Assembly: GCA_011176685.1 (NCBI GenBank) | Contig: DUED01000037.1 | Span: forward strand, 1 to 64,000 | Length of the DNA: 64,000 nt | Direction: 5' to 3' | Source of the DNA: Anaerolineae bacterium | GTDB lineage: Bacteria; Chloroflexota; Anaerolineae; Anaerolineales; Anaerolineaceae | Shown here: one piece after another, positions 20,968 through 53,185 of the stretch | Numbering within the stretch: position 1 is the stretch's first letter | Layout of the letters: each line of letters opens with the position of its first letter | Position numbers and translations under genes: made by a program | Notes under the pieces: generated by a model | Databases searched by the model: none | What the model saw: the letters and a program-made list of their open reading frames with translations, nothing else | Told to the model about the DNA's origin: nothing

Positions 20968-22752
20968 ATGACCGAAACAATACTTGTCGCTGTTGCCTGG
21001 CCATATGCAAATGCGGAAATCCATGTCGGCAATCTGGCGGGTTCCTACTTACCTGCAGATATCTTTGCACGCTACCATCGACTGAAGGGTAACCAGGTGC
21101 TGATGGTTTCAGGTAGTGACTCACATGGCACACCCATCACAGTGCGCGCGGATGCAGAGCATGATTCTCCTTTGGAAGTCTACCAGCGTTTCCATGCTGG
21201 CTTCCTGGAGCTTTTCCAGCAGATGGGCTTAACCTATGACCTTTTCACCACCACTCACAGCAGCAATCATTTTCACGTTTCACAACTGGTTTTTAAGGCG
21301 CTGCTGGCGAATGGGTTTATGTATAAAAAAAGTCAGCCACAATGGTATTCGCCCAAGCAGAAGCGGTTCCTGCCTGACCGCTATGTGGAGGGCACCTGCT
21401 ATATTTGCGGCTATCAGGGCGCGCGTAGTGACCAGTGTGACCAGTGCGGTACACTGCTGGAAGCTACCAAGCTGATAGACCCGCGCAGCAAAATTGACGG
21501 CTCCAAGCCGGAACTGCGCGTGACTGAGCACTTCTTCCTTGACCTCTCCAAACTGCAGGAAGAGGTGCTGGAGTTCCTTAAAGAGCGCGAATCTTATTGG
21601 CGTCCCAACGTGGTGCGTCAGTCGCTGGGGCAGATTCTGGCAGAAGGACTGCGCGGGCGGCCCATCACCCGTGACCTCGACTGGGGTATTCCAGTGCCAG
21701 CGGAAGGATGGGAAAGAAAATGCATATATGTATGGTTCGAAGCGGTCATTGGCTACCTCTCTGCTGCAATTGAGTGGAGCCAGATCACAGGTGAAAAAGA
21801 TGCTTGGCGGCAGTGGTGGCAGGACCCCTCCTCGAAAACTTATTACTTCATCGGCAAGGATAATATTCCCTTTCATGCCATCATCTGGCCAGCAGAGCTG
21901 ATCGGCTGCAGTAAGTCTTTTGATGCCCTGTATGGATCAAAGAAACCGGCATCTTTTGTGCTGCCCTATGATGTACCTGCCAATGAATTCCTCAACCTGG
22001 AAGGTGAGAAGATCTCAGGTAGCCGCAATTGGGCAGTATGGGGGCGCGATTTTCTCAGCCGTTACGATCCGGATACACTTCGTTACTATCTGACCAATAT
22101 CATGCCCGAAACGCGTGACACCGATTGGGATTGGGAGGATTTCTACCAGCGCAATAACAACGAATTAGTTGCCACCTGGGGCAATTTGGCTAACCGTGTG
22201 CTTTCTTTTGCCTACAATCATTGGCAGGGCGTGGTGCCTGACCCTGGTCAACTGACCTCGCAGGATAAAGACCTATTGCAAGAGATTGAGGGAGGTTTTG
22301 AGACCGTCGCTAAAGAGATTGAAGCCGTGCACTTGCGTGCTGGATTGATAGAAGCCATGCGCTTGGCAGGTAAGGTTAACAAATATCTTGACCAGACCGC
22401 GCCCTGGCATGCCATTAAGCATGACAAAGCGGAAGCCGCGCGTTCCATTTATGTTGCCTTGCGTGCCATCGATTCACTCAAAATACTCTTTGCACCCTAT
22501 CTGCCTTTCTCCAGTCAGCAGCTGCACGCATACTTGGGATATAAAGATCAGTTGTTCGGTGAGCAGGAAACACAGACTATCAAGGACAACCTCGGTGAAC
22601 ACAATGTTTTACGCTACAATCCAAAGAAAGCCAAAGGTGGGTGGAAACCCAGCCAGTTAGCAGCCGGGCGGAAGTTATGCGAACCAACTCCGTTATTCAA
22701 AAAGCTGGATGTAAAGATTGTGGAGGAAGAGCGGGCGCGGCTGGGGGGATGA
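20968..22752 (+). CDS. metG: Methionyl-tRNA synthetase
   Basis: This 594-residue class I synthetase charges tRNA-Met. The HIGH-type motif is HVGN (residues 19-22), in NAEIHVGNLAGSYLPADIF. The zinc knuckle has four cysteines (CYICGYQ...CDQCG, about 144-161). The KMSKS-type loop is EKISGSRNW (about 348-353). The anticodon-binding helical domain follows (FAYNHWQG...YLDQTAPWHAIKHDK). The C-terminal tRNA-binding OB domain found in some MetG is absent. Its last 16 codons recur, diverged, at 29872-29919, which marks the boundary of an accessory block that begins right after this gene. Confidence 0.95.
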   Translation: MTETILVAVAWPYANAEIHVGNLAGSYLPADIFARYHRLKGNQVLMVSGSDSHGTPITVRADAEHDSPLEVYQRFHAGFLELFQQMGLTYDLFTTTHSSNHFHVSQLVFKALLANGFMYKKSQPQWYSPKQKRFLPDRYVEGTCYICGYQGARSDQCDQCGTLLEATKLIDPRSKIDGSKPELRVTEHFFLDLSKLQEEVLEFLKERESYWRPNVVRQSLGQILAEGLRGRPITRDLDWGIPVPAEGWERKCIYVWFEAVIGYLSAAIEWSQITGEKDAWRQWWQDPSSKTYYFIGKDNIPFHAIIWPAELIGCSKSFDALYGSKKPASFVLPYDVPANEFLNLEGEKISGSRNWAVWGRDFLSRYDPDTLRYYLTNIMPETRDTDWDWEDFYQRNNNELVATWGNLANRVLSFAYNHWQGVVPDPGQLTSQDKDLLQEIEGGFETVAKEIEAVHLRAGLIEAMRLAGKVNKYLDQTAPWHAIKHDKAEAARSIYVALRAIDSLKILFAPYLPFSSQQLHAYLGYKDQLFGEQETQTIKDNLGEHNVLRYNPKKAKGGWKPSQLAAGRKLCEPTPLFKKLDVKIVEEERARLGG

Positions 22753-23084
22753 TTAAATTTTTAGGATTTATATATTCCAGTAGGCATAAAAAAGGCATCT
22801 AATAATGATAGAATGTATATAACATTATTCGGGCCTATCTATATGTGTAATAGTTGATTCCTACGTTCTAAATCAGGGAGGGATTACTGACAACGAATAT
22901 AAAAAATCATCGTCCCCGTAGGCTAATGCAAAATCGAGGTTAAGGACTGACTGAACGCTTAATAATTTTTTATATGTTAATCAGTTCAAATGAACAATTT
23001 AAAGGATGTATTAGTGGGATTTGTTATTACTTGAAAATGGGTTAGATTTAAAAAGGAAATAAGGTTGGGGTTAGATCATTAAAG
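22753..23084. other. AT-rich spacer at the left edge of the metG-cinA accessory block
   Basis: These 332 bases show no coding similarity. No integrase, attachment repeat or tRNA was found. The stretch separates metG from the TIR-WD40 gene and probably contains its promoter, but no clear hexamer pair could be picked. Confidence 0.4.
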
Positions 23085-25590
23085 ATGGCTCGCAAGATAA
23101 TGCTTAATTACCGCAGAGCAGATACGAAGGGGTTTGCAATCGCTATCTACAATAGTTTGGTTTCCAATTTTGGCGAAGATAAAATCTTTATGGATATTGA
23201 TACCATTGAACCGGGCACAGATTTTGTAAAAGTCCTTGAAAAAGCGGTTCAGCAATGTGATGTGCTGATCGTAATGATCGGACCGCAGTGGTTGGGAATA
23301 AAAGACTCCAGCGGGGAGAGAAGATTAGACAATGAGGGCGACTTTGTGCGCATAGAAATAAAGGCTGCTTTAGAGCGTGAAGTAACAGTACTGCCAGTCC
23401 TTGTCCAGGGAGCAAAAATGCCCACTGCCACAAAATTACCTGATGATATCCGTTCACTTGCTCGGGCGGCAGGCATTCGTCATTAGCGACCGATTCAGCA
23501 CCGATGTAGATCAGCTCGTCGAGGTGTTGAACAGAATATTAGAAAGAGCTAGACTAGAACGCCTTGAAAAGGAAAAGGCAGAAAAGAAAAAGAAAAAAAC
23601 CACCAAACCACCGCTGATAAGAATACCTTCCCTTGTTCGAAAACGGCCTGAAAAGGTGTTGAAAAGCACATCTGTGAAAGCAGAGGTGAAACCGAAAGCT
23701 GCAGAAAAGGCACGCAAGAGAGCACCTGTTAAACCCATGCCAAAAACAACCAGGCGGATTTCCTATGCACTTACTGCAGCAGCCGTATTAGTGATTTCTT
23801 ATGTCCTGGTCAAGAATACGGATATTTTCACAAAGGATTCAAAGCCCACTGAAAATGCGGCTATCTCTTCATCAATATCCACAAAAGAACCGACCTCAAC
23901 CGGAATGCCTGCTGCAACTGAAATACCTGCTGTGAAATACCCTATTAGGGGCGGGCTATCCTCTGTAGCTGATGAGATTGAAGCCATTAATGCATCAAAT
24001 GTTGACCAGATCATTGAGTTGGTGCGCTGGGATGATGGGGTTATTCATGAACTGGCATATTCTCCAGTAGAGGATGTGATCGCTCTTGCGACCTCAAATG
24101 ATATTCATATTATGCAAGTTGATCAAACTGATGGAAATTATGAACTTAATGAAATACGAATTATTCATTTTGACGTTGCATTAAGTTTTGAAATGAACCG
24201 AACGAACCTCTCCATTTCCCCGGATGGGAGCGTCCTGGCTACCGGCCATGAGGATGGCAAAGTGCGGTTATGGCAAGTCTCAGATGGCGAACTGCTGCAT
24301 ACCCTAGGGTATTCCAGAGGCGTTGCAGGGGCTATTGCATTTTCCCCTGATGGAAGTATGCTGGCTTTCCATTCATATGTTTACTCTTATTTCTCTGTGA
24401 AGTTGTACCGGGTATCAGACGGGAAACTTGTTGGCAACCTATTTTACCCCGGGGGTTTATCATTAGCGGACTGTACAGCCTTTTCTCCAGATGGAACAAT
24501 GCTGGCTTCTGTCCATAATGATGGCGAGGTGCGGTTATGGCAGGTTTCTGATGGAGAACTGCTTGGTATTTTTAGAATAGCGGATGATTTTGATGATAAA
24601 TATGTAAATGCTGTTGCATTCTCCCCGGATGGGAGCACCCTGGCTTCCGGTCACGCGGATGGAACAGTGCGGCTTTGGCAGATACCAGGTGGGAATTTGC
24701 TTGAAATATTACCAGCCGACTTAAACCGGGAGCTTGGTTGGATAAGCAGCGTTACTTTTTCCCCTGACGGAAGCATGCTGGCTGCCGGATTTGCACATAA
24801 CACTGCGCGCATATGGCGTACTTCAGATTGAAAGGTGCTCGAAGACCTGGAAGATATTTATGTATCTTCAGTATTAAGCGTTTCTTTTTCTCCGGACGGG
24901 AATTTGTTTGCATACAGTTCTATGGGGGGAGCTTTACGCTTGTATCGTGTTTCGGATTGGGAAGAAGTTGCCAGCAGCGGTTGGGACTCCGCCGCAATAT
25001 CCAGTATTGCTTTATCCCCCGATAAAAGCCTGATTGCTTCCGCTTGTGCAGATGGAAAAGTGCGGGTGTGGCGAGTTTCGGATGGTTCACTGCTCAACAG
25101 ACTAGAATCAGGCTCTGAAGGGGTGACCAGCGTTGCCTTCTCTTCAGATGGGAACATGCTCGCTTCTGGACACGAAGATGCAGTGCGGTTGTGGCGGGTT
25201 ACGGACGGAGCATTGCTCAACACCCTAGAAGGACATACTAGTGAGGTACTCAGCTTGGCTTTCTCACCAGACGGGAGTATGCTGGCTACCAGTGATCAGG
25301 AAGGTATAGTACGTCTGTGGCGAGTTTCAGACGGGGTCTTGATTCACGATGTAGAACAATCCTCTGAAGACCAAAATTGGGTCAACAGCTTGTCCTTCAC
25401 CCCAGACGGCGAGGTGCTTTCCGGTTGTGGAAAATTTATATTTCTGTGGGGAGTATCAGAAGGGAATTTTCTTAAAGAGTTAGGATGGTCTGAATCTTCC
25501 ATAAGCTGTATGGCTTTATCCTCCGATGGGACCTTACTGGTCACGGGTTCATTTGATAGTACGATCCAGATTTGGGGAGTTCTTGATTGA
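23085..25590 (+). pseudogene. TIR-TM-WD40 protein, interrupted by a frameshift and one in-frame stop
   Basis: The restored product is about 835 residues. The TIR domain (about 1-145) has IMLNYRRADTKGFAIAIYNSL, DKIFMDIDTIEPGTDF, VLIVMIGPQWLG and DFVRIEIKAAL, whose glutamate is the likely NADase catalytic residue. A long Lys/Ala/Pro-rich linker and one membrane helix (SYALTAAAVLVISYVLV) follow. About twelve WD40 blades then recur as FSPDGSxLASGxxDGxVRLWxVSDGxLL. Two lesions interrupt it. A G run at 23464-23466 has one extra G; removing it gives SLARRQAFVISDRFS. TGA at 24829-24831 falls at the glycine position of the repeated SDG motif (RTSD-stop-KVLE). Neither lesion removes the TIR domain. TIR-WD40 proteins are sensors/effectors of bacterial immunity. 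It heads a same-strand cassette with SLATT, AAA-RyR and SLOG genes. Confidence 0.8.
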
Positions 25591-25733
25591 TTAGACTCAA
25601 CAAACCCCATCATTTTTTATTGCTGAATAGAAGTGAGATTGCAAAAAGACGTTTTTCTTTTCTTCCCTCATTATGATTTTCATAAAGGTTTGTGCAGCGT
25701 TTAATAAATACTGTTAGGAAAGGTGGATAAATT

Positions 25734-26165
25734 ATGAATGAGACAGATTATCTAGATAATCGATTAAATAACCAAATCAAATGGTATTCAGATAAAAGTA
25801 GTGAAAATAAGAAATACTACTACACATTAAAAATATTACAAATTATTTCGGCGGCGTGTGTTCCTTTTTTAGTTAGCCAGATTTCGACCGAAGACAATCA
25901 ATTGAAAATTCTTGTAGAAATAATTGGAATAATAGTAGTAATCACATCAGGAATAATGACGGCTTTCCGTTTCAACGAGCTGTGGACCAACTATAGAACA
26001 ACTGCAGAAACCCTAAAACATGAGAAGTATTTATTTTTATCAAATGCAGAACCAGACCAAAATGAAGGTAATTTTCCAATTCTAGTTAAAAGAGTTGAAA
26101 GTCTAATTTCAAAAGAACATTCAATATGGGACGAGAGTTCAAGAAAAGATGAAGAAAAGAAATGA
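25734..26165 (+). CDS. SLATT-type (DUF4231) two-helix membrane protein
   Basis: This 143-residue protein matches the DUF4231/SLATT group. A charged N-terminal segment with YLDNRLNNQIKWYSDKSSENK is followed by two closely spaced membrane helices (ILQIISAACVPFLV and VEIIGIIVVITSGIMTAF). The C-terminal coiled helix has the family's WTNYRTTAETLKHEKYLF pattern. SLATT proteins have been predicted, by comparative genomics, to be pore-forming effectors in nucleotide-dependent conflict systems. A GGAAAGGTGG ribosome-binding region precedes the ATG. It lies 143 nt after the TIR-WD40 gene, on the same strand. Confidence 0.8.
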   Translation: MNETDYLDNRLNNQIKWYSDKSSENKKYYYTLKILQIISAACVPFLVSQISTEDNQLKILVEIIGIIVVITSGIMTAFRFNELWTNYRTTAETLKHEKYLFLSNAEPDQNEGNFPILVKRVESLISKEHSIWDESSRKDEEKK

Positions 26166-26172
26166 TTAAGCA

Positions 26173-26535
26173 ATGAGGTTACTCGTTCCTGTGCAACGAA
26201 CCCACATTAAACCGCATAAAGAACATACAGCCTTAGGGTGTGTCTTCCAAGTGGTTTATTGAAAATGCTAGCAATCAGTTTAGGAAAGAGAAATGGAGCG
26301 ATGAAAATTCACAAATATAGTATAAGTGAAGCAATCGAAATTGTAGTAAAAACACTTCTTGAAAAGGTGTCAATTATTGCAGGTTTAGTTATTATTGAAA
26401 ATCATTTCCGCGATATAGTTTTCGCAATCAGGCTGTTGCGTCAACCAGAGTGATGCCGATGCGCCTTACAGGATTAGATATTGACTTAAATTAGACGTTG
26501 TGGTTGATGGAAAAGAAATACGCTAATCAGTGTAT
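26173..26535 (+). pseudogene. Decayed DUF2088/lactate-racemase-like fragment
   Basis: Two adjacent frames resemble this family in order. RTHIKPHKEHTALG (about 26203-26240; the family has NRIKPHTDFRG) is followed after a frameshift by PSGLLKMLAISLGKRNGAMKIH and SIIAGLVIIENHFRDI (the family has SGLxKMxxIGLGxHxGAxxxH and GxAIVENAxxE). The later LDVVVDGKEIR and MDG words could be the next conserved block. The longest single frame is 71 codons (26238-26453). I infer a dead remnant caught between the SLATT and ATPase genes. The family match is from recalled motifs and should be treated as moderate. Confidence 0.45.
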
Positions 26536-26570
26536 GGATGGGTAATGGTTGGATAGAAGAGAGGGTAACA

Positions 26571-29216
26571 ATGGAAAAAAAAGAAAAGACTTCTGGAATA
26601 GTGGTAGTTAGCGGTGATGTGACTATTGATTGGAACATAGCTACAACAAGCGGATTCATGGGTGGTAAATCTACCTGGGATGAGCAATTACATTCCAGCG
26701 CGTATGATCAACCCGGCGGAGCCGTTTTATTGGCTGATTTGGTCAAGGAAATCGTTCAACTGGAGAATAGGGAAGAGCGCTTTGAAGTACGAAATAATAG
26801 ACTTATCAATAAAAGGATATTACCAGGTGACAAACGCTTTCATCATTCCTACGCCCTCTGGGCTCCTTTCCCTTTTTCAAGCAGCCCATCTCCCAACAAA
26901 GAAAAACCAGCCTGGCGTGTTTCAACATTTCTGGGATACAAAAGCGCCAGTACGGACACTAAGTTTTCTGTGAATGGCGGGACAAAGGTGGTTGATGATG
27001 ACCCGTCAGCAGAGTTGGTGGTGTTGAGTGAAGGCAATCTGGGCTTCCGTGATAATCCAGATATCTGGCCGCAAGCAGTCAATTCCAGGGATCATGAACC
27101 CTGGATTATCCTCAAGATGTCACCTCCCGTTGCGCAGGGACAACTATGGCATAAGCTGATAAAAGAACATCCCACACGATTGGTTGTCATCACTACCATT
27201 AATGACCTGCGCCGCTCCGCTGTGCAGATCAGCCGCGGTCTCTCCTGGGAATCCACCGCCCAGGATGTCCTTTGGGAATTGACGCATAATCCCCAGATCA
27301 ACGGTTTGACTCAGTCCGCATGTGTCATCATTTCTTTGGATGCTGCCGGATCAATCATATTAACTAAAGATAATGGAAACGCGAGTGTTATCCTCCTGTT
27401 TGATCCATTCAACATGGAATGGGAGTGGGAGCGGCAATACCCCAGACTAATGGTTGGATACACTACTTGTATGACCGCTACCCAAGCTTACCAGATAATG
27501 ACTGCCAAACAAGAAAAACCTGACTGGGTCAGCGGAGCGCAGCGGGGTTTGGCTGCCATAAGAACCTTGCACAGTGAGGGCTATGGTTTGCGAGGCGCGC
27601 ATCCCTCAGAAGCGGATTTATTTTTTCCAATACAAAAATTCGCTGAAGGGATATTACAAGATTCCAAGGTCGTCTCACAAGTATCCATTCAAGATCCCAC
27701 CCGCTTTTTATTAGAACCTCGCATATCACAAGCATCATCCTTGCAGAAGCCCAATTACTGGACCATTCTGGAAGAAAATTATTCTGAATCTCTGGAAAAT
27801 ATAGCGTTTCAAATCGGTAAACTCGGCATTCAGTCCGTTGTAAATAATGTACCCATCGGGCAGTTTGGTGCCCTTTGTACCATGGATCGCCTTGAAATTG
27901 AAGCATTTCACGGCATCCAGCGTTTGATATCCGAATATTGCCAGTGCGCACAAAAACAACCGCTTTCAATCGCTGTATTTGGACCTCCAGGCGCCGGGAA
28001 ATCATTTGGAGTGCGGCAAGTAGCGAAAACCATCATGAGTGATATCGCGACACTGACATTCAATCTTTCCCAATTGGTGGGGTTAGATGACCTCCTAGAT
28101 GCTTTTCACCAGGTTCGTGACGCCACTATCTCCGGCAAGATCCCGCTTGTATTCTGGGATGAATTTGATACTACGCGGGACGGCCAACCGCTTGGCTGGC
28201 TGCGTTATTTCCTGGTGCCAATGCAGGACGGTGTATTCCAGCAAGGACAGATTATACACCCGATTGGGCGTTGTATCTTCGTCTTTGCGGGTGGTACTAG
28301 TCACAGCATAGATAAATTTGGCATGGATCTCAGCGAAAATGAAAAACATATGTCCAAGCTCCCCGACTTTGTCAGCAGACTAAAGGGTTATCTGAATGTA
28401 GTGGGACCAAATCCGCAAGGAGATATTAACCTTGACCCTTATTACATTCTGCGCAGGGCCATCCTGCTGCGATCACTTATCAAGCATAATGTGCCTGGAA
28501 TTCTCCAAAAACAGGATGCGCGAATTGATCCTGGCATCTTGCGCGCGTTTCTAAAGACGCGCATGTATAAACACGGCGTACGGTCCATGGAATCGATCCT
28601 GGCTATGAGCTCGTTGGCAAATACGACCGCATATGAACGGTCGAGCCTTCCACCGGAAAGACAGTTGGAATTGCATGTGGACGCCGCAGATTTTCTATCT
28701 ATCGTCCAGGAAATCGAATTGAAAGGAGAGTTGTTGGAAAATCTGGCTAAGGCCACCCACGAAATTTATTGTGAAGAACTGAAAACCAATGGCTATTCTT
28801 ATGGTCCGCATACTGATGAAGAAAAGAAACTGCACAGCTCCCTGTTGCCGTATGACCAACTACCTGATGAAGAAAAGGAACAAAACCGCAATTATGTGCG
28901 CCATATTTCCACCAAATTGAACCAGGCGGGGTATGTTATGCGTCCTGCTCGTAGTAATGAACGGCCTTATAAATTTCCTGGTGATGATTTTGAAAAACTT
29001 GCGCAGATTGAACATCAACGCTGGATGAATCAGAAGCTGTCTGATGGATGGAAACATGCCGATAAGACTGAAAAAAAGTATAAAACGCATACAGATATCA
29101 AAGAATGGGAGAGATTATCTGAAATAGCTAAAAATCGGGATTACACGCTGATAAGGGCAATTCCGCTTATACTGGCAAAAGCAGGATATGCACTGGAAAA
29201 AATGAAGGCGTCGTAG
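26571..29216 (+). CDS. Ribokinase-like/AAA ATPase with tandem RyR domains
   Basis: About 881 residues. The N-terminal part (1-400) resembles a ribokinase/PfkB-type fold: IVVVSGDVTIDWN at the start, PGGAVLLADLV, ACVIISLDAAGSIILT and FDPFNMEWEWE later. This call is tentative. An AAA-type ATPase follows: Walker A FGPPGAGKSFG at about 469-479, Walker B IPLVFWDEFDT at about 525-533, and sensor-1-like IFVFAGGTSHS. Two tandem RyR domains close the protein. The first is about 734-790 (GYSYGPHTDEEKKLHSSLLPYDQL). The second is about 807-878 (LAQIEHQRWMNQKLSDGWKH). RyR domains are proposed to sense nucleotide-derived ligands. I chose ATG 26571 (behind AGAGGG) over 26538, whose extra residues read into the upstream remnant. 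The SLOG gene starts 13 nt downstream. Confidence 0.75.
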   Translation: MEKKEKTSGIVVVSGDVTIDWNIATTSGFMGGKSTWDEQLHSSAYDQPGGAVLLADLVKEIVQLENREERFEVRNNRLINKRILPGDKRFHHSYALWAPFPFSSSPSPNKEKPAWRVSTFLGYKSASTDTKFSVNGGTKVVDDDPSAELVVLSEGNLGFRDNPDIWPQAVNSRDHEPWIILKMSPPVAQGQLWHKLIKEHPTRLVVITTINDLRRSAVQISRGLSWESTAQDVLWELTHNPQINGLTQSACVIISLDAAGSIILTKDNGNASVILLFDPFNMEWEWERQYPRLMVGYTTCMTATQAYQIMTAKQEKPDWVSGAQRGLAAIRTLHSEGYGLRGAHPSEADLFFPIQKFAEGILQDSKVVSQVSIQDPTRFLLEPRISQASSLQKPNYWTILEENYSESLENIAFQIGKLGIQSVVNNVPIGQFGALCTMDRLEIEAFHGIQRLISEYCQCAQKQPLSIAVFGPPGAGKSFGVRQVAKTIMSDIATLTFNLSQLVGLDDLLDAFHQVRDATISGKIPLVFWDEFDTTRDGQPLGWLRYFLVPMQDGVFQQGQIIHPIGRCIFVFAGGTSHSIDKFGMDLSENEKHMSKLPDFVSRLKGYLNVVGPNPQGDINLDPYYILRRAILLRSLIKHNVPGILQKQDARIDPGILRAFLKTRMYKHGVRSMESILAMSSLANTTAYERSSLPPERQLELHVDAADFLSIVQEIELKGELLENLAKATHEIYCEELKTNGYSYGPHTDEEKKLHSSLLPYDQLPDEEKEQNRNYVRHISTKLNQAGYVMRPARSNERPYKFPGDDFEKLAQIEHQRWMNQKLSDGWKHADKTEKKYKTHTDIKEWERLSEIAKNRDYTLIRAIPLILAKAGYALEKMKAS

Positions 29217-29229
29217 CTGAAGAATTTCA

Positions 29230-29814
29230 ATGGTACATAAAAAAATTGTCATCGGGGCAACTGGTCATCGACTGATTATAAATAACCAAAGCGTGATGAT
29301 GGGAATTGACAAAGCTTTAAACCGGATTTGCCACGAATATCCCGGTCATGAGCTTGTGTGTTATTCCAGTATAGCTGAAGGGGCTGACCGGTTGATAGCA
29401 CAAAAAGTACTCGCAACACCTGGAGGACAGTTATTTGCTGTCCTTCCTTTTGATACGGAGAAATATGCGAAAGACTTTCTAAGTGATGAGTCTAAACAGG
29501 AATTCGAAATCTTTATGGAAAAAGCCGTTGATGTTGCTGTCATGCCGGCAGCCAACTCCCGGGAAGATTCTTATCTTGCCGCTGGAAAGTATGTACTGAA
29601 TAAATGTGATGTGCTAATAGCCGTGTGGGATGGAAATCCGCCTGGGGGCGTGGGGGGCACAGGGCAAATTGTAAATTTTGCGCGAGAAAAAAAACCATTG
29701 GCTTGGGTTCATGCAGACAAGAGAAAGAAAGAGCCCAAATATTCAAAAAATAAAATCAACAAACAATGTATTGTCATTTTTGAAAATTTCCCTGAATTAA
29801 CCAAATTCCAGTAG
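29230..29814 (+). CDS. SLOG-type Rossmann nucleotide-binding protein
   Basis: This 194-residue protein has the SLOG/LOG-like plan: IVIGATGHRL with the GHR motif, VCYSSIAEGADRLIAQKVL, then LFAVLPFDTEKYAKDF, and KCDVLIAVWDGNPPGGVGGTGQIVNFAREKKPLAWVHAD. SLOG domains bind or process nucleotides/NAD-like ligands and occur with SLATT, RyR and TIR proteins in predicted immunity operons. It follows the AAA-RyR gene by 13 nt. Its last 6 codons (ELTKFQ) overlap the antisense of a cinA 3' end, so its natural C-terminus may have been altered when this cassette was inserted. Confidence 0.8.
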   Translation: MVHKKIVIGATGHRLIINNQSVMMGIDKALNRICHEYPGHELVCYSSIAEGADRLIAQKVLATPGGQLFAVLPFDTEKYAKDFLSDESKQEFEIFMEKAVDVAVMPAANSREDSYLAAGKYVLNKCDVLIAVWDGNPPGGVGGTGQIVNFAREKKPLAWVHADKRKKEPKYSKNKINKQCIVIFENFPELTKFQ

Positions 29815-29876
29815 TTTCACAAGCGCTGCATCCGCAGATTGTGATTTGATTTCACCCCTATGTCCCTGAAACTGGA
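29797..29876 (-). pseudogene. Second, diverged cinA 3' end (scar)
   Basis: On the minus strand this stretch reads QFQGHRGEIKSQSADAALVKLLEFG-stop in one frame. The intact cinA at 37011 ends QFQGQRDEIKAQSADAALVRLMEYLKP. The nucleotide differences are mostly synonymous, so this is a homologue from a related genome, not a fresh copy. Homology ends at CTGGA (29872-29876), where it changes to metG sequence. Confidence 0.85.
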
Positions 29877-29919
29877 TGCCAAGATTGTAGAGGAAGAGCG
29901 CGCGCGCCTGGGGGGATGA
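29872..29919 (+). pseudogene. Second, diverged metG 3' end (scar)
   Basis: This reads KLDAKIVEEERARLGG-stop, versus KLDVKIVEEERARLGG-stop at the end of metG (22704-22752). About five of 49 bases differ, and the changes are mostly synonymous. It joins the cinA' scar at the shared CTGGA and has no start codon or upstream metG sequence. Confidence 0.88.
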
Positions 29920-30052
29920 TAAAAATATGGACAAGTGTTTGCTTTAGTATTTACATAATTAATAATATTTCTGTAATCTCATATTATGAGTTAAATAAAT
30001 AACTATCACACATAGTATGCTGGTTGGTTTGTGTTTTCACGAAAATCATAAT

Positions 30053-31582
30053 CTAGCTAGATTTATTCTTTCTTTCACCTTGTATAGCGCGTAAGAGCAT
30101 CTCTTCTGTTACTTTCTTTTCAGGCATATTATCAATTTCTTGAATAATTTTACCTCTACGTAGAACCAAAATGCGATCGCACAATTCAGCCAATTCAGCC
30201 ATTTCGGAAGAAACAATAATCACGCCATTCCCCTTGCCAGCAATTCTTCGGATGATCTGGGCAATTTCTTTTTTCGTGGCAATATCAACTCCAACAGTGG
30301 GGTCATCCAATAATAAAATATTCGGTTCCGAGGACAAACTTTTAGCAAAAACCACTTTCTGCTGATTTCCGCCAGATAATCGCTCAACAAGTTGGTCAAT
30401 GTTGGGGGTCTTGATATCTAATTCGTGAATAAGTTTCTCCACAATTACTTTCCCCCTATTTTCTTGAATAATGAATTTTTTCGATAACTTCTTCCAAATT
30501 GGAAGTAACACGTTCATCCGTAAAGATTGTCCATAAATCACACCATTCTTACGCCGATCCTCTGGTACATGAATAATGCTCATCTCAATAGCTTGAGCGG
30601 GATGGGTGATATTTACACGATTACCCTTAATTAGAATCTTGCCTTTATCTAAACGTAGAATTCCGTAAATCGATTTCAGTAGCTCAGTTCGGCCGCTTCC
30701 CATAACACCTGCAATTCCTAAAATTTCACCTGGGTAAAGTTTAATAGTGACATTACTGAAGCGACTTTTTGAGCTTATAGAGTTCGCTTCTAGTAAAGGA
30801 TGAGTGCGTTTGATTTTTTGTTTTGATTGTAATTTATATTTTGTAATTTTCTTTGCAACCATTGCTGAAACGATTTTCTCTAAGTTCAACATCGAGGTTT
30901 TATCTGATAAAGCAATTTTTCCATCCCTGATCACTGTAACGCGGTCACAAATATCCATCACCTCATTAAGATGATGTGATACAAAAATGATAGAAATGTC
31001 TTCCTCTTTTAATCTGCGTATCAACGTAAATAAAGATTGAATCTCTACGCTTGATAAAGATGAAGTAGGCTCATCCATGATAAGAATGGAGGCATTTTGG
31101 CTTATTGCTTTTGCGATTTCAACTATTTGTCTTTTACCCACGGATAATTGGGACAATTCGATGTTTGGATCGATGATAATTTTAAGTTCTTGAAATATGC
31201 CAACAGCCCCACTATATGATTGGTCCTCATCGATAAACATTCCTTTCATAGGTTCCCGAGTTAGAAACATGTTTTGTGCCACTGTCATAGTCGGAATAAG
31301 GCTGAACTCTTGGAAAACCATCGCAATTCCATTTGCCATAGCACCAACAGGTGTATCGTAATCCACTTCTTTACCTTTTATCAGAATTCTTCCCTCATCA
31401 CGTGTGTATACACCACTGACAATTTTCATTAGAGTTGATTTTCCAGCACCATTTTTTCCTACTAAACCATGTATTTCCCCTTTACGTAAATTAAATTCAA
31501 CGCCGTGCAGAACCTCCACGCTGTTAAAGGACTTATGAATACCTAAAGTCGATAGAATAGGATTTGATTTGTTATTCATCAT
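30053..31582 (-). CDS. Ribose/simple-sugar type ABC transporter ATPase
   Basis: This 509-residue fused double ATPase is of the RbsA/MglA type. The first domain has GKNGAGKSTLMKIVSG, LSVGKRQIVEIAKA and ILIMDEPTSSLS. The second has the atypical Walker A GVMGSGRTELLKSIYG, plus LSGGNQQKVVFAKSL and ILLLDDPTVGVD. Such fused ATPases power uptake of monosaccharides or nucleosides. It is the last gene of the leftward cluster with a permease and binding protein, and sits 15 nt from the YhfX-like gene. The sugar is unknown. Confidence 0.9.
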   Translation of the reverse strand: MMNNKSNPILSTLGIHKSFNSVEVLHGVEFNLRKGEIHGLVGKNGAGKSTLMKIVSGVYTRDEGRILIKGKEVDYDTPVGAMANGIAMVFQEFSLIPTMTVAQNMFLTREPMKGMFIDEDQSYSGAVGIFQELKIIIDPNIELSQLSVGKRQIVEIAKAISQNASILIMDEPTSSLSSVEIQSLFTLIRRLKEEDISIIFVSHHLNEVMDICDRVTVIRDGKIALSDKTSMLNLEKIVSAMVAKKITKYKLQSKQKIKRTHPLLEANSISSKSRFSNVTIKLYPGEILGIAGVMGSGRTELLKSIYGILRLDKGKILIKGNRVNITHPAQAIEMSIIHVPEDRRKNGVIYGQSLRMNVLLPIWKKLSKKFIIQENRGKVIVEKLIHELDIKTPNIDQLVERLSGGNQQKVVFAKSLSSEPNILLLDDPTVGVDIATKKEIAQIIRRIAGKGNGVIIVSSEMAELAELCDRILVLRRGKIIQEIDNMPEKKVTEEMLLRAIQGERKNKSS

Positions 31583-31596
31583 ACTTTATGTAATTT

Positions 31597-32796
31597 CTAC
31601 CACTGGGGCCAATTTGTTTTTCTGCCGCCGCTTGTATAAACGCCTTTCACAATTGGCTCTTCCTTAGAAATACCGGATACTGGCACTATATAAGTGCGTG
31701 TGACAAAAGCTTGCGGGCGGAAACCGAATATTACTGTGTCATTAACATGAACCTTCTCACTGCCCTCATCTGTGACTATTCCATAATAATCAATTGCACT
31801 AGTAGGGGGGAGATTGACAGATAGCTGATTCTTTATAGCATCGTCAGGTTCTGTGCCTATTAAAGCTTTCACGTCATAATCTGGAAAAACCGGATCGATA
31901 TATAAACCACCCCCAAAACAATAAGGGTGTCCATTGTAGACGTGCGAGATTTCAGTTAAATAAAGTATAGCTGGGAATTCTGGTAAATCTTTAACCGCGT
32001 GCAAAGGAGTGGTTCCAGTTAGGCCATGTCCCGGTTCGACTTGAGTAGCTCCTGCTGATGCGAGAATTTCCATTACCACAGAAGATGTTGTTCCAGGAGC
32101 ATTAATCTCGATATTCTTACGATCAACGTTCGACAATTCATTGGCTGATTTCTCAAGTGTTCTTAGGTTGGGAGTGGGTTCTACTTCACCTGAATCTATG
32201 TTAAATAAAAGTGCCGGGAAAGTTGTGATTCCAGCAAAAAATGCATGTGAGAGGCTATCTAATTCATCTGCTACTTTGACAATCGCCTCAGCTCTGAAAC
32301 CTCCTTCATGGCCCATATAGAATGTATCTCCAGGTGCATAGATTCTTGCAAGCAATGCTTGTTCCCTACTTAGCTTACTCGAAGAATCTGAAGCAGACTT
32401 TGCATTTTCATAATTGAAAACAGTCCAGTAGTAAGGTTCGAGAGAGGCGGCCACATCGGTTTCGGCTTTAGGGATTTGGACCAGATGTCCAAGATGTCCA
32501 ATCATATAACCGGCTGCCTTTATTGGTAATGCGCCAGTCATGTCTACGGCAACATAAGCATCTAGCCCATTCTTTGCCAAAATGTCCATTGCTTTAGGAT
32601 TACGACCGATTTGCTTGGTCATTGGGAAAACTTTTAATCCCAAACGCTTCCCCTCCGCCGCTATGATGGCAGCATTTTTATTGATCATGTCTAAGTCGAG
32701 AACAACACTATTGGCAGGAATTTTCCTACTCTGATGCAGTGCAATAGCACTCTTTATAAAATTCGGGTTGCGCTCAATCAATTTTTTCAGAAACAT
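31597..32796 (-). CDS. YhfX-like PLP-dependent (alanine-racemase fold) enzyme
   Basis: About 399 residues. The alanine-racemase-type barrel shows SVVLDLDMINKNAAIIAAEGKRLGLKVFPMTKQIGRNPKAMDIL; the lysine of MTKQIGRNP is the likely PLP lysine. The late VEPGHGLTGTTPLHAV and YCFGGGLYIDPVF match YhfX-type proteins. The function of the family is poorly defined; amino-acid racemase activity is a guess. ATG 32796 follows a GAGGATGAGG sequence. The frame is open to 32862, but that would overlap the permease. Its place between transporter genes suggests it handles the imported compound. Confidence 0.8.
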   Translation of the reverse strand: MFLKKLIERNPNFIKSAIALHQSRKIPANSVVLDLDMINKNAAIIAAEGKRLGLKVFPMTKQIGRNPKAMDILAKNGLDAYVAVDMTGALPIKAAGYMIGHLGHLVQIPKAETDVAASLEPYYWTVFNYENAKSASDSSSKLSREQALLARIYAPGDTFYMGHEGGFRAEAIVKVADELDSLSHAFFAGITTFPALLFNIDSGEVEPTPNLRTLEKSANELSNVDRKNIEINAPGTTSSVVMEILASAGATQVEPGHGLTGTTPLHAVKDLPEFPAILYLTEISHVYNGHPYCFGGGLYIDPVFPDYDVKALIGTEPDDAIKNQLSVNLPPTSAIDYYGIVTDEGSEKVHVNDTVIFGFRPQAFVTRTYIVPVSGISKEEPIVKGVYTSGGRKTNWPQW

Positions 32797-32821
32797 TTCC
32801 TCATCCTCCGCTTTTTTAAAA

Positions 32822-33781
32822 TTACCTTTCAATAGATTCACGAAGACTAAGGGATACTGCAATTACAATGATAAACCCTCTTGCTATCATTTGTTCAGAA
32901 ACTGTTAATCCCATGAGCAATAGCCCATTATTCAACATACCCATAATGATGGAACCAATAATTGAGCCGATAATTGATCCTTTTCCACCTGAGAAAGCAG
33001 TTCCACCAATAACTACAGCTGCAATTACAGTAAGTAAATCTGCTCCGCCTAATGTATATCTTGCACCATGTAAACGACCAGTGAATAAAATTCCTGCAAA
33101 TGCGGCCGTAATCGCGCTTAAGACAAGCACGGCTATTCGTATGTTATCAGTTCGTACACCAGAATACCTGGCAGCAGATCGATTTCCACCTGTTGCTAAA
33201 ACCGCTCTTCCAAATGGCGTTTTCTTCAGAAGAATATGGCCAAGAATCGTTATGATTATCGTCCATATAAAAAGTGTCGAAAGATAACCAACATTTCCTG
33301 AACCAAATATAAAGTTGAAAGTCTCATTTGTTACTGGTACGGCTTGCAAATTAGTTATTGATCGCGCTAAGCCGCTTATTATGCTGTTTGTACCTAATGT
33401 AACCAGGAAAGCCGGGATACGAATTTTTGTCGTGATAAAACCATTTATAAGTCCAGTGATTAATCCAACAGACAATCCAGAAGCAACAGCTACGACTATG
33501 CTGTATTTTCGTAGAAGTAAAGCTGTGACTAGAGCCGATAGTGCCACTGTGGATCCAATTGACAAATCGATTTCGCCAGCAGTTATAGTAAATGTCATAC
33601 CTATTGCCATAACTGATACCATGGCAGTCTGACGAAGAATATTCATAATGTTATCGCTGGAAAGAAATCCCCGGTCGCGCAAGGTAATGGAAAAGAATAA
33701 AGAAATTACAATGAAGCCAATATAAATAATGTAATTGCGTAATTGAAGAGAGTTGATCTTTTTATATATTCGCTTAAGCAA
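32822..33781 (-). CDS. Ribose/simple-sugar type ABC transporter permease
   Basis: This 319-residue RbsC-type permease has about 8-10 helices with ITAGEIDLSIGSTVALSALV, PAFLVTLGTNSIISGLA and ATGGNRSAARYSGV. The late AVVIGGTAFSGGKGSIIGSIIGSIIMG is also typical. The start is TTG with AGGAGG 9 nt upstream. It lies after the binding-protein gene, separated by a strong hairpin. Confidence 0.9.
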   Translation of the reverse strand: MLKRIYKKINSLQLRNYIIYIGFIVISLFFSITLRDRGFLSSDNIMNILRQTAMVSVMAIGMTFTITAGEIDLSIGSTVALSALVTALLLRKYSIVVAVASGLSVGLITGLINGFITTKIRIPAFLVTLGTNSIISGLARSITNLQAVPVTNETFNFIFGSGNVGYLSTLFIWTIIITILGHILLKKTPFGRAVLATGGNRSAARYSGVRTDNIRIAVLVLSAITAAFAGILFTGRLHGARYTLGGADLLTVIAAVVIGGTAFSGGKGSIIGSIIGSIIMGMLNNGLLLMGLTVSEQMIARGFIIVIAVSLSLRESIER

Positions 33782-33802
33782 TGTAAAATCCTCCTAAAAG
33801 GG

Positions 33803-33837
33803 TCTCGGGTGGTTCTAATAATTAGAGCCACCCGAGA
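33803..33837 (-). terminator. Intercistronic hairpin between binding protein and permease
   Basis: TCTCGGGTGG (33803-33812) pairs with CCACCCGAGA (33828-33837), and the stem extends inward through TCTAAT/ATTAGA, giving about 16 bp. On the minus strand only a short U tract follows. A partial terminator or RNA-stabilising stem that keeps the binding protein more abundant than the permease is likely. Confidence 0.65.
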
Positions 33838-33850
33838 TTATTCATATATA

Positions 33851-35032
33851 TTATTGTTCTAAAGCCGTGAGAATATCCTCTGGTGGTTGCATATTTAAAG
33901 CACGTTGCCAAGACTCTGCAAGGTTATCCTTTTTTACCTTTATAAGGTCAACCACTACGAATGGCGGGGCTTCATTTCCAAGTAATTGATAAGCCGCCAT
34001 CTTTGCCATAATGGCGCCGATATCATATGGTAGATCGATAGTCTTACCATACATATTCCCCCCTAAGGCCATATCAAGGTCATTATTTGCGCCCAAGTCC
34101 TCAGTGGTTACCATAACATCACTTCTGTCAGCGGCACGTAGTGCTGCGATCACGCCCTCAGCAGCCACATCCCAAGCCACATAGATGCCATCAATTTCAG
34201 GATGCTGCACTAGCATAGCGGAAGCAACTTCTTCGGTCTTTGGTTCCTCAGTGAAGCCGCCAGTAGCCACGATTTTTATATCCGGATACTGTTCTTTTAT
34301 CGTACAGTAGAATGTGCGGTCACGGTTGTTTGTAACAAAGTAATCAGCATCGTGATAGATGAAACCAATCTCGCCTTCTCCGTTTAAAGCCTCAGCCATT
34401 AAATCAGCAGCACCACGGCCCATACCATAATGGTTTCCAGTTACAATACCAACGTACTGGTTTCCAGCCACATAGCCATCTGCGCCATTATCTGCGAAAA
34501 CCAGAATTACACCTTTGTCCACGGCTGGTTGAAAAGCGCGTGCACCGGACACCGGGTCTACAACCAATGTCAGGATAATATCTGGATTTAATGCTAGGGA
34601 TGTTTCAACATCAGTTGCCTGCTTTGCGGGGTCAAATTCTGCATCTGCAGTTGCTACTATCTCAATTCCAAGCTCCTCGAAGATTGCAGTTGCCCCATCG
34701 GCTAAACCATTATACCATTCACCCGCACCAGCCCATAATAAAGCTGCTGTGTAGTTACCTTCTTTAATCTTTGCGGATTCTTCCGATGTTAACTCTACCT
34801 CACTAGCAGGAGTAGCGTCCTCGCCATTTGGTCCTTTTGCATACTCAGCGCTATATTGTGAGCAGTCTATGTCTAAAGTAACTTCTTCTACTTCAGCTTC
34901 CTCAGCAACAGGTGCTTCCTCGGCAACAGGTGCTTCCTCGGCAACAGACACTTCCTCTACACCACCGCAGGAACTAATTAGAAGAGCGGCTACCATTAGG
35001 ATCAATAAACCAACATACTTTCTAGATTTCAT
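33851..35032 (-). CDS. Sugar-type periplasmic binding protein (lipoprotein)
   Basis: This 393-residue protein has signal peptide MKSRKYVGLLILMVAALLISSCGG with a lipobox. A Glu/Ala/Pro/Val linker comprises near-perfect 18-bp repeats (EEAPVA units, about 34893-34946). The rest is a class B (RbsB-like) binding protein: YTAALLWAGAGEWYNGLADGATAIFEELGIEIV, PDIILTLVVDPVSGARAFQPAVDKG, IDGIYVAWD. GGAGGAAG precedes the ATG. The ligand is unknown. Confidence 0.9.
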   Translation of the reverse strand: MKSRKYVGLLILMVAALLISSCGGVEEVSVAEEAPVAEEAPVAEEAEVEEVTLDIDCSQYSAEYAKGPNGEDATPASEVELTSEESAKIKEGNYTAALLWAGAGEWYNGLADGATAIFEELGIEIVATADAEFDPAKQATDVETSLALNPDIILTLVVDPVSGARAFQPAVDKGVILVFADNGADGYVAGNQYVGIVTGNHYGMGRGAADLMAEALNGEGEIGFIYHDADYFVTNNRDRTFYCTIKEQYPDIKIVATGGFTEEPKTEEVASAMLVQHPEIDGIYVAWDVAAEGVIAALRAADRSDVMVTTEDLGANNDLDMALGGNMYGKTIDLPYDIGAIMAKMAAYQLLGNEAPPFVVVDLIKVKKDNLAESWQRALNMQPPEDILTALEQ

Positions 35033-35143
35033 TTTCTTCCTCCAATTTATTTGTTTTTTAAAAAACCGATAAGAATTTTTTAGAATTGTTTACTCCACCT
35101 CCTTCCTTTGTAAATAAAATATGCAGATTTGGATTTACCAACA

Positions 35144-36337
35144 CTATGTTAATTTACGCACAACATAAAAATCAGAGACATTATGAAGCAGGTTGATCAT
35201 TGCCCCAAGAACTGCCGCACGATGACCGAGAGAAGATGCAACAACTGGTGGAACATACGGGATCTTCCCAGAAATGAGATTTACAATAGGACCAATGAGC
35301 AGATCGGCTGACTGGATCACACCACCACCTAGTATTATCAATTCCGGGTCAAAAAAGGTGGCAACAGCTGCAATTGCGATAGTAAGATAATCAATAACCT
35401 CTTCAATTATTTCTGTTGCCCATGCTTCGCCGCGTCGATGAGCCAGGAATACATACTCAGCAGTTATTAGGTTATTTTTAACTTTAATTTTCTTTGCCTT
35501 AAGTGTTTTCTTAGCAAGAGTAGCAATTCCAGTGCCTGCCGCAAGTAATTCCAGTGCGCCAAAGCTATGATATTCTTTCTTTAAATATTCTCTTCCAGGC
35601 AGTAAATAACCAATTTCCCCTGCCATTTGATGTGCGCCTCTGTATAAAGCTCCATCAATTACTACACCAGCTCCGATTCCTGTTCCAATATATATACATA
35701 CTAAATTGTCCACATCTTTTCCAGCGCCGAACCATATTTCGCCTAATGCAGAAAGGTTCACATCATTATCTATGATTACAGGGAGACTGAAATGTTCTTT
35801 GATCCGGCTTCCTAAAGGAAAATCACGCCATTCAAGACTTGGTGCCCACTCAACTATGCCTTTTTCGTGGAAAGTCACTCCTGGGGTTCCGATGCCGATA
35901 CCCAAAATATTTTTCCCAGTTGTTTTTGCCTGATCTAAAAGGCGGGAGATTAAATCGATTACTAAAGTGTAACTTTCTTCACCCTTCGTTCTGTGCTTTG
36001 GCACAGTTTCCTCGAAAAGAACATTTCCGCCCAAATCAGTTACGGCCCCGTAGAACTTAGTCCCTCCCAAGTCAAGACCTATGGTTATATGTCCTTCTTT
36101 ATCAAATTCAATTAATGAGCGCCTTCTTCCACCGCTCCATTCCTTTTTATTAAAATCACGAACAAATCCCTCTTCAATTAATTTACCAACTATTCGCATG
36201 ACGGTTGGTAAACTTATATGTAAAGTTTTTGCGATATGCGTACGTGATGTTGGTCCCTCCCGTCGTATAAGTTCTATTATTGCTGTACGGTTTATACCCA
36301 CCATCTCGGTTGCTGTGATTGTTTTGATTTGTTTCAT
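35144..36337 (-). CDS. ROK family transcriptional regulator
   Basis: This 397-residue protein has an N-terminal winged helix (NRTAIIELIRREGPTSRTHIAKTLHISLPTVMRIVGKLIEEG) followed by a ROK domain (ITIGLDLGGTKFYGAVTDLGG, IGIGTPGV, DNDVNLSALGEIWFGAG, YIGTGIGAGVVIDGALYRGA). The zinc-binding CxCGxxGCxE of sugar-kinase ROK proteins is absent (here GEIGYLLPGREYLKKEYHSFGALE). That favours a repressor that binds, but may not phosphorylate, its sugar. It probably controls the adjacent ABC-YhfX operon, with which it shares direction. Confidence 0.88.
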   Translation of the reverse strand: MKQIKTITATEMVGINRTAIIELIRREGPTSRTHIAKTLHISLPTVMRIVGKLIEEGFVRDFNKKEWSGGRRRSLIEFDKEGHITIGLDLGGTKFYGAVTDLGGNVLFEETVPKHRTKGEESYTLVIDLISRLLDQAKTTGKNILGIGIGTPGVTFHEKGIVEWAPSLEWRDFPLGSRIKEHFSLPVIIDNDVNLSALGEIWFGAGKDVDNLVCIYIGTGIGAGVVIDGALYRGAHQMAGEIGYLLPGREYLKKEYHSFGALELLAAGTGIATLAKKTLKAKKIKVKNNLITAEYVFLAHRRGEAWATEIIEEVIDYLTIAIAAVATFFDPELIILGGGVIQSADLLIGPIVNLISGKIPYVPPVVASSLGHRAAVLGAMINLLHNVSDFYVVRKLT

Positions 36338-37010
36338 GTTTGTCTCATGGTTTTGGAGATACTTAATAACAATTAATAATACTTATTAAGTATTAGTAAG
36401 TACTATTATATAACAGTTTTTTATTTATTTTAAATAATTAAAGAAATTTTTAAGATTCTGTTTATTAAAAGTATTTCCCTAAGTTTTACCAAAAGTTCAA
36501 AGCGAGTTTCATAAACCAAAACTGATACACTCCTGTTTATTGAATTTAATGGGATTATTCATATAATATGGATAATAAAAAAGTAAAAAAATCTTACCCC
36601 ATTTCTTTACTAAACTGCTATGCAGCTCTCGCGATTAACAGAAAAATTGGACACGCGGTATGAACCTAGTGATAATTTTTGGGGATTGATGATTATAAAA
36701 GGAAGAAAGCCAGGTACTGTTGGATAACGCGAAGCACAAAATGTCACGTCAGGAAGGATTAAACGTGGAAAGGTTTTCACTTATTTGAGACAATGCTATG
36801 CTTTACGCAAGGTAACAACAGTTATATGATTGGATGGGGTGGCTTATTAAGAATAATTATCCATTGCATTTGCATAGTCTATGTGATGTTATTTTATATG
36901 TGGTGTTCAGATAACACTCCCCTATTTTAACTGTAACTTCACCGAACCATGATTCTTGGATTTCGGTATTTATTCCTGAATATCCTTATTTAAATAAGTC
37001 GGTTTGAGGA
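36338..37010. other. Long AT-rich spacer with candidate ROK operator
   Basis: Upstream of the ROK gene lie AATACTT-N3-AAGTATT (36378-36394) and, right after it, TAGTA-AG-TACTA (36394-36405). These two adjacent inverted repeats are 40-70 nt before the ROK start and could be an autoregulatory operator. The remaining 600 bases up to cinA show no gene, repeat or RNA that I can recognise. Confidence 0.4.
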
Positions 37011-37511
37011 TCACGGTTTCAAGTATTCCATTAATCTCACAAGCGCTGCATCCGCAGATTGCGCTTTGATTTCATCCCTTTGCCCTTGGAACTGGAACTT
37101 CCAGGCGAAGTCCTCCTCTTTGGCGCTCAAGCCAATCCACGCCAGACCGACTGGCTTGTTTTGTGTTCCACCGCTTGGCCCGGCAATGCCAGACACCGCC
37201 AGCCCGATGATCATATCCACGTCAACCAGGTTCCTGAAAGCATGGCGGATGCCGCGTGCCATCTCCAGCACAGTTTCGCGACTGACCACGCCGTGTTTCG
37301 CCAGTGTCTCGGCTCTAACCCCCAGCCATTCCTGCTTAGCTTCATAAGCATATGTCACCATCCCACCCAGGAAATAATCCGAAGAGCCAGGCACGTTAGT
37401 GATGCGATGGGCGATCAGCCCACCGGTGCAGGATTCTGCCACAGCCAGTTTTAACCCCTTTTGGCGCATCAGCTCTCCAACCTTCTCTTCCAGCCCTGTT
37501 TTTATATCCAT
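37011..37511 (-). CDS. pncC: CinA C-terminal domain, nicotinamide-nucleotide amidohydrolase
   Basis: About 166 residues. The standalone CinA amidohydrolase domain has KLAVAESCTGGLIAHRITNVPGSSDYFLGGMVTYAYEAKQEWLGV, ALAVSGIAGPSGG-like (GLAVSGIAGPSGGTQNKPVGLAWIG) and the terminal QSADAALVRLM. It deamidates NMN to NaMN in pyridine-nucleotide recycling. The N-terminal COG1058 domain of full CinA is missing. I chose ATG 37511, where a TATAAT lies 6 nt upstream, over 37547. Its 3' end marks the right edge of the accessory block that starts after metG. Confidence 0.88.
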   Translation of the reverse strand: MDIKTGLEEKVGELMRQKGLKLAVAESCTGGLIAHRITNVPGSSDYFLGGMVTYAYEAKQEWLGVRAETLAKHGVVSRETVLEMARGIRHAFRNLVDVDMIIGLAVSGIAGPSGGTQNKPVGLAWIGLSAKEEDFAWKFQFQGQRDEIKAQSADAALVRLMEYLKP

Positions 37512-37517
37512 GGACTG

Positions 37518-37523
37518 ATTATA
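37518..37523 (-). promoter_or_regulatory. -10 element of a leaderless pncC promoter
   Basis: TATAAT on the minus strand lies 6 nt before the ATG at 37511, with no Shine-Dalgarno. This is the same arrangement as at miaB and sigA and supports the shorter pncC start. Confidence 0.55.
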
Positions 37524-37633
37524 CCCGTGTGAAAATGTAATATTCATGGTTGCAGGTTATTGGAACGTTTTTGCTAAAATTGCCACGCTTGACCACCTCC
37601 TTGCGCCATGTTATGATTTTTTTTGAGAAATGT

Positions 37634-52713: not shown

Positions 52714-53185
52714 AAACGTTCTTCCTTCTCTAAACTTGTTTATGAATTAATTCAAGTTTAGCAAATGGGCAGGGACGCTTTCATAGTATTTACCCGAAAT
52801 GGGAAAGTCGGTTCATTAACAATGACAATGAAATTACCGATTAAGAGCCAGTAGAGTAAGATGTCCATTATGCCTACGACCGTATGAAGTCTCGCAGAGG
52901 CGACCAGAGGGAGTCTCGTAGAGACACTCCGTTAGGGGTGAACCAACGAACATTGACCCCCCCAAGTGTGCTGCGCGAGGTTAAGAGCCCTCTTCTTATT
53001 TCGCTGATTTTTAACCTTAAAGCCCCGATATATTGCTTAGTATTGTGTTAACCAATTCCTCAGAGCCTGGCTGAGTAAAACACCATCTTTGATTAATTAT
53101 ACATTGAAGGTTTAATAATCATGTCTTCGAGTATAAGAATCAATAGCAAATTTATTTATCTAATCTTCAACAGGTCTCTAGATTC
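52714..53185. other. Spacer with short palindromes, no gene seen
   Basis: These 472 bases lie between the IS110 piece and the HAD gene. A small hairpin-forming GAGTCTCGTAGAGACACTC lies near 52911-52929, near a similar GTCTCGCAGAGGCGAC. I see no coding similarity. It probably represents IS or plasmid-type debris. Confidence 0.35.

Follow-up and report, generated by a model that had tools for sequence, protein, structure and literature searches.

Genomic islands are known to accrete in tandem at a shared attachment site. Accessory genes also collect in hotspots that lack mobile elements, where exchange proceeds by recombination at the flanking core genes (Oliveira et al., 2017; PMC5635113). Homology-facilitated illegitimate recombination (HFIR), which uses segments of 3–10 bp, has been documented in transformable bacteria of other species (PMC6382021), and its occurrence during natural transformation has been summarised for Streptococcus pneumoniae, Acinetobacter baylyi and Pseudomonas stutzeri (PMC6382021).

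The locus described here, in which two cassettes (X and Y) lie between metG and a cinA-type gene, with leftover ends of both genes between them, resembles each of these systems in part. As in HFIR, the foreign DNA would be anchored by homology, the joint is a microhomology of a few base pairs and no integrase is seen; the single joint, CTGGA, is 5 bp long and lies within the 3–10 bp range. The present case differs in that the event is deduced from a single joint, seen in a draft genome, and in that the same two core genes would hold both ends, with stacking of the cassettes as the outcome. As in core-gene hotspots, accessory genes are situated between two conserved neighbours, no integrase is seen and exchange would draw on flanking homology. 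In contrast to such hotspots, none of the relatives examined has X or Y at the site, and material has been added rather than swapped. Tandem island accretion likewise sets two unrelated cargoes side by side with duplicated ends of the host site between them, but here there is neither an integrase nor a tRNA site, and what is duplicated are short, diverged ends of genes in the order cinA′–metG′.

Organization of the metG–cinA block

The window, which is the whole 64-kb stretch of DNA that was analysed, lies at the beginning of a contig of 149,060 bp. The genome is a draft of 2.08 Mb in 66 contigs, with a completeness of 88% and a contamination of 5.75%; judging by its titled relatives, the host belongs to the family Anaerolineaceae. 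The block X–scar–Y occupies 14.3 kb between metG and cinA, and the overall order is metG-X-cinA′/metG′-Y-cinA (Table 1). Intact copies of both genes were located at the outer edges of the block, where the original prediction had placed them. Each is present as one copy only in the genome; matches were obtained in 115 of 121 family and order genomes for metG (tblastn-type comparison) and in 102 of the 121 for cinA.

Table 1. Positions of the genes, cassettes and scar pieces of the block within the window
Feature	Position	Strand	Remarks
metG, methionyl-tRNA synthetase, intact	20968–22752	+	Left block edge; 75% amino acid identity to nearest
Cassette X	22758–29804	+	Begins ~5 bp past metG stop, ends within cinA′ stop region
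cinA′ piece	29797–29876	-	Last ~24 codons of diverged cinA; stop at left, reads leftward
metG′ piece	29869–29919	+	Last ~16 codons of diverged metG; stop 29917–29919
CTGGA microhomology joint	29873–29877		Alignment partner changes from cinA to metG here; head-to-tail
Cassette Y	29925–37010	-	Pfam ABC_tran, YhfX-like_C, BPD_transp_2, Peripla_BP_4
cinA-type gene (CinA/PncC family, short form), intact	37011–37547	-	Right block edge

The scar and its joint

Between X and Y lie 123 bases made up of the leftover ends of both housekeeping genes. Positions 29805–29876 align with the 3′ end of the local cinA (37025–37096) at 86% identity over 72 bp (E 4e-18), and positions 29869–29924 align with the 3′ end of the local metG (22702–22757) at 88% identity over 56 bp (E 1.6e-13). 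The scar is real, each piece matching its local gene far beyond chance, and the alignments confirm the earlier reading that 24 codons of a diverged cinA 3′ end, on the minus strand, meet 16 codons of a diverged metG 3′ end, on the plus strand, at CTGGA. A flush match of at least 5 bp between the two local gene ends would be expected by chance with P = 0.0044 (0.44%, over all junction placements).

On self-comparison of the 149-kb contig, the scar pieces were the sole diverged gene-end remnants, and the remaining matches were repeats, some of which were inspected. No direct repeats were detected at the outer boundaries of the block, the sole gene-end repeats being those of cinA and metG that meet at the internal joint. 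Pfam scans of ten of the eleven block genes revealed no integrase, transposase or other recombinase, and no tRNA is present at the block.

Simple site-specific insertion between metG and cinA was also considered. It was rejected, since it cannot yield the order cinA′–metG′ and so would not give the scar.

An artefact of assembly or of chimeric reads would have joined contigs from a metG-X-cinA strain and a metG-Y-cinA strain, or written the branches of a strain bubble serially. The 66 contigs and the contamination level of the draft are compatible with such an error, and a linearised bubble would give the same topology. Several observations argue against it, however: the whole contig contains no N, a 5-bp overlap is far below the word of an assembler, the alleles differ up to within 3–7 bases of the joint, the bin has a single metG and a single cinA, and both flanks are collinear with those of a sister genus at similar identity. 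An assembly chimera is therefore disfavoured and regarded here as improbable.

The metG–cinA site in relatives

Comparison of metG–cinA neighbourhoods in related genomes, which had been proposed with the original prediction, shows that the two genes adjoin as convergent neighbours in about 40 family and order genomes. The same two core genes thus flank content that, to judge from gap sizes of a few bp up to 4.8 kb, is variable in these relatives. The gap is only 2–8 bp in g33, a genus that ranks with the nearest when metG is compared. In UBA4781, a sister genus, metG and cinA abut, and collinearity with the window extends over nine genes leftward from metG and six rightward from cinA. This arrangement gives good support to the view that the whole block was inserted in this lineage, and it places both flanks in one chromosomal neighbourhood.

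The expectation that metG and cinA would flank a single one of these cassettes in relatives was not borne out: neither X nor Y lies between the two genes in any relative examined, and X-like and Y-like modules were encountered elsewhere only. Beside those modules no convincing pieces of metG or cinA were found. A search for a donor by metG, in GTDB contigs and within the genus, returned no congener.

Other gene-end remnants were sought in the metG–cinA gaps of about 30 relatives. The only one was a perfect tandem metG copy in G065, and weak matches were regarded as noise. The G065 copy (region G065:C1:442000–449500) is a direct tandem duplication of 1,221 bp, comprising the 3′ part of metG and about 75 bp downstream; it adjoins the intact metG and lies between metG and cinA. 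It is either very recent or an assembly duplicate.

Codon changes in the scar pieces

Comparison of metG′ with the local metG reveals five changed codons, four of them silent, and five of the six changed bases fall at third positions (P = 0.018). The sole residue change, A for V, introduces the common family residue, which is absent from the local copy. In the aligned part of cinA′ there are nine changed codons relative to the local cinA, four silent and five altering the residue, and the third-position excess in this piece alone is weak (P = 0.21). When both pieces are pooled, third codon positions account for 10 of the 16 changed bases (P = 0.016). The differences had been described beforehand as mostly synonymous, which holds for metG′ but not for cinA′. 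The third-position excess, together with the metG′ change toward the common family residue, makes the scar pieces look more like alleles of working genes than decayed copies, although the evidence is thin. The metG ending ...LGG stop and the cinA pattern FQFQG..EIK.QSADAALV are common to the scar pieces and the local genes and are rare or absent in relatives, which is what a congeneric donor would give. At 51–80 bp, the pieces are too short for a tree.

When the scar DNA was compared with 147 family genomes, no congener being among these, the local metG and cinA were closer than any relative. Greatest similarity to the local genes, once sequence errors are allowed for, had been put forward as a result that would speak against recombination with foreign DNA. 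Formally, a weak form of this result was obtained, although the pieces carry more differences than sequence errors would account for. The same similarity could also favour an origin within the genome, in which a metG′-Z-cinA′ segment was duplicated in tandem via CTGGA, the cassette was then replaced in one copy through recombination in the genes at its sides and the fragments drifted. Tandem duplication at metG itself is known from G065. This route would need two events instead of one, however, and it sits poorly with the lack of common sequence between X and Y and with metG′ changes that are nearly all silent and keep a family-typical residue missing from the local copy. We consider an in-genome duplication unlikely.

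Gene content of the cassettes

Cassette X (7,044 bp) encodes a TIR gene, WD40 genes, a SLATT (DUF4231) gene, a RyR-AAA ATPase of 892 residues and a SLOG-like gene, with Pfam matches to TIR_2, WD40, DUF4231/SLATT_1 and RyR. The SLOG-like gene has no Pfam match and was assigned from its sequence and context. The last gene of the cassette stops inside the end of cinA′. The RyR-AAA/SLOG gene pair, near a TIR or beta-propeller gene, is conserved in two relatives (G136 and G191); X is therefore a TIR/SLATT/RyR-AAA/SLOG conflict-type module. Within 23085–25590, the TIR and WD40 parts are in different frames, and an in-frame stop at 24829–24831 interrupts the WD40 part. The TIR-WD40 gene consequently looks broken, whereas the RyR-AAA gene is intact.

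Cassette Y (7,091 bp) is a complete sugar-ABC operon, comprising genes for a sugar ABC ATPase, a YhfX-like PLP protein, a permease, a binding protein and a ROK regulator. All five genes are found in the same order in a genome of the sister genus (G178), with 58–78% amino acid identity, at a locus away from metG and cinA. The ROK regulator was named from its sequence, outside the Pfam scan, and matches a conserved regulator at the G178 locus. At 32822–32862 the mechanically assigned start of the YhfX-like ORF overlaps with the permease gene end; the true start is probably further downstream.

The possibility that the two cassettes diverged from a single one was rejected, as they have no common sequence and their identity is near background at every offset. 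Their near-equal lengths are probably a coincidence.

Proposed origin of the block

Additive stacking of X and Y is well supported, and the order metG-X-cinA′/metG′-Y-cinA would follow from one illegitimate join between a metG-X-cinA and a metG-Y-cinA chromosome. With moderate confidence, we favour the interpretation that two metG–cinA alleles underwent an additive illegitimate recombination and that the scar marks its joint. The recipient chromosome would have carried metG-X-cinA and the incoming DNA, from a congener, metG-Y-cinA; the roles may also have been reversed. One incoming end would have been joined at the 5-bp CTGGA, lying 24 codons inside cinA and 16 inside metG. Exchange at the other end would have used ordinary homology in cinA (or in metG), and an intact copy of each gene would thereby have stayed outside. 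Both cassettes would thus be kept, with cinA′–metG′ left between them. Such a course follows the HFIR pattern, at a site of the core-gene hotspot type. The donor genome, the way in which its DNA entered and the earlier state of X and Y as alternatives at the locus are components that we infer. Against this interpretation, no metG-X-cinA or metG-Y-cinA genome was found among the relatives examined, and two different cassettes would have to have occupied the same few-bp gap in two congeners.

Homologues of comEC and dprA are present in the genome. Both genes also occur in species that are not known to be naturally competent, and the homologues permit competence but do not show it.

According to the original prediction, recombination of a circle or foreign segment bounded by CTGGA accounts for both halves of the block without an integrase. 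The topology and the microhomology are in keeping with recombination; X and Y may have been alternative cassettes, and a circle is not required. In the circular version, a molecule carrying one cassette, closed at CTGGA as cinA′–metG′, would have integrated through one of the short homologous pieces. Microhomology circles are possible in principle and, to judge from topology, the same final order would result. This version calls for an extra step of excision and closure, however, and homology for integration would be limited to about 50–80 bp at ~87% identity, with longest identical runs of 25 and 13 bases; nor is there a recombinase among the scanned block genes. No observation separates a circle from a linear donor, and the circle is judged improbable.

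The additive recombination favoured above is a mechanism that is rare but of a known kind, and X and Y are modules of known kinds; what is unusual is a clean footprint of two gene ends that keeps both cassettes. If the interpretation is right, the block provides a readable footprint, in an uncultured member of the Chloroflexota, of a second accessory cassette gained at an occupied site without a mobile element. Both core genes would have survived the event, and their leftover ends would record it together with a second, now unseen allele. Scars of two gene ends, if searched for, could indicate how frequently cassettes are stacked in nature.

A broader and doubtful extension is that the metG–cinA gap serves this lineage as an integrase-free cassette slot, in which cassettes are normally swapped via the flanking genes, are occasionally stacked through microhomology and can collapse, via the repeated gene ends, to either single cassette. 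If this were true, one population could alternate between, or keep together, a defence module and a sugar-uptake operon.

Other repeats

Three copies of a repeat of ~120–150 bp, 86–90% identical and non-coding in appearance, are located on contig C31 outside the window (134338–134487, 136592–136729 and 144726–144849; loci L183 and L184). Short dispersed repeats with 85–93% identity are present at 52877–52924 of the window and at 68942–69063 and 144936–144994 of contig C31.
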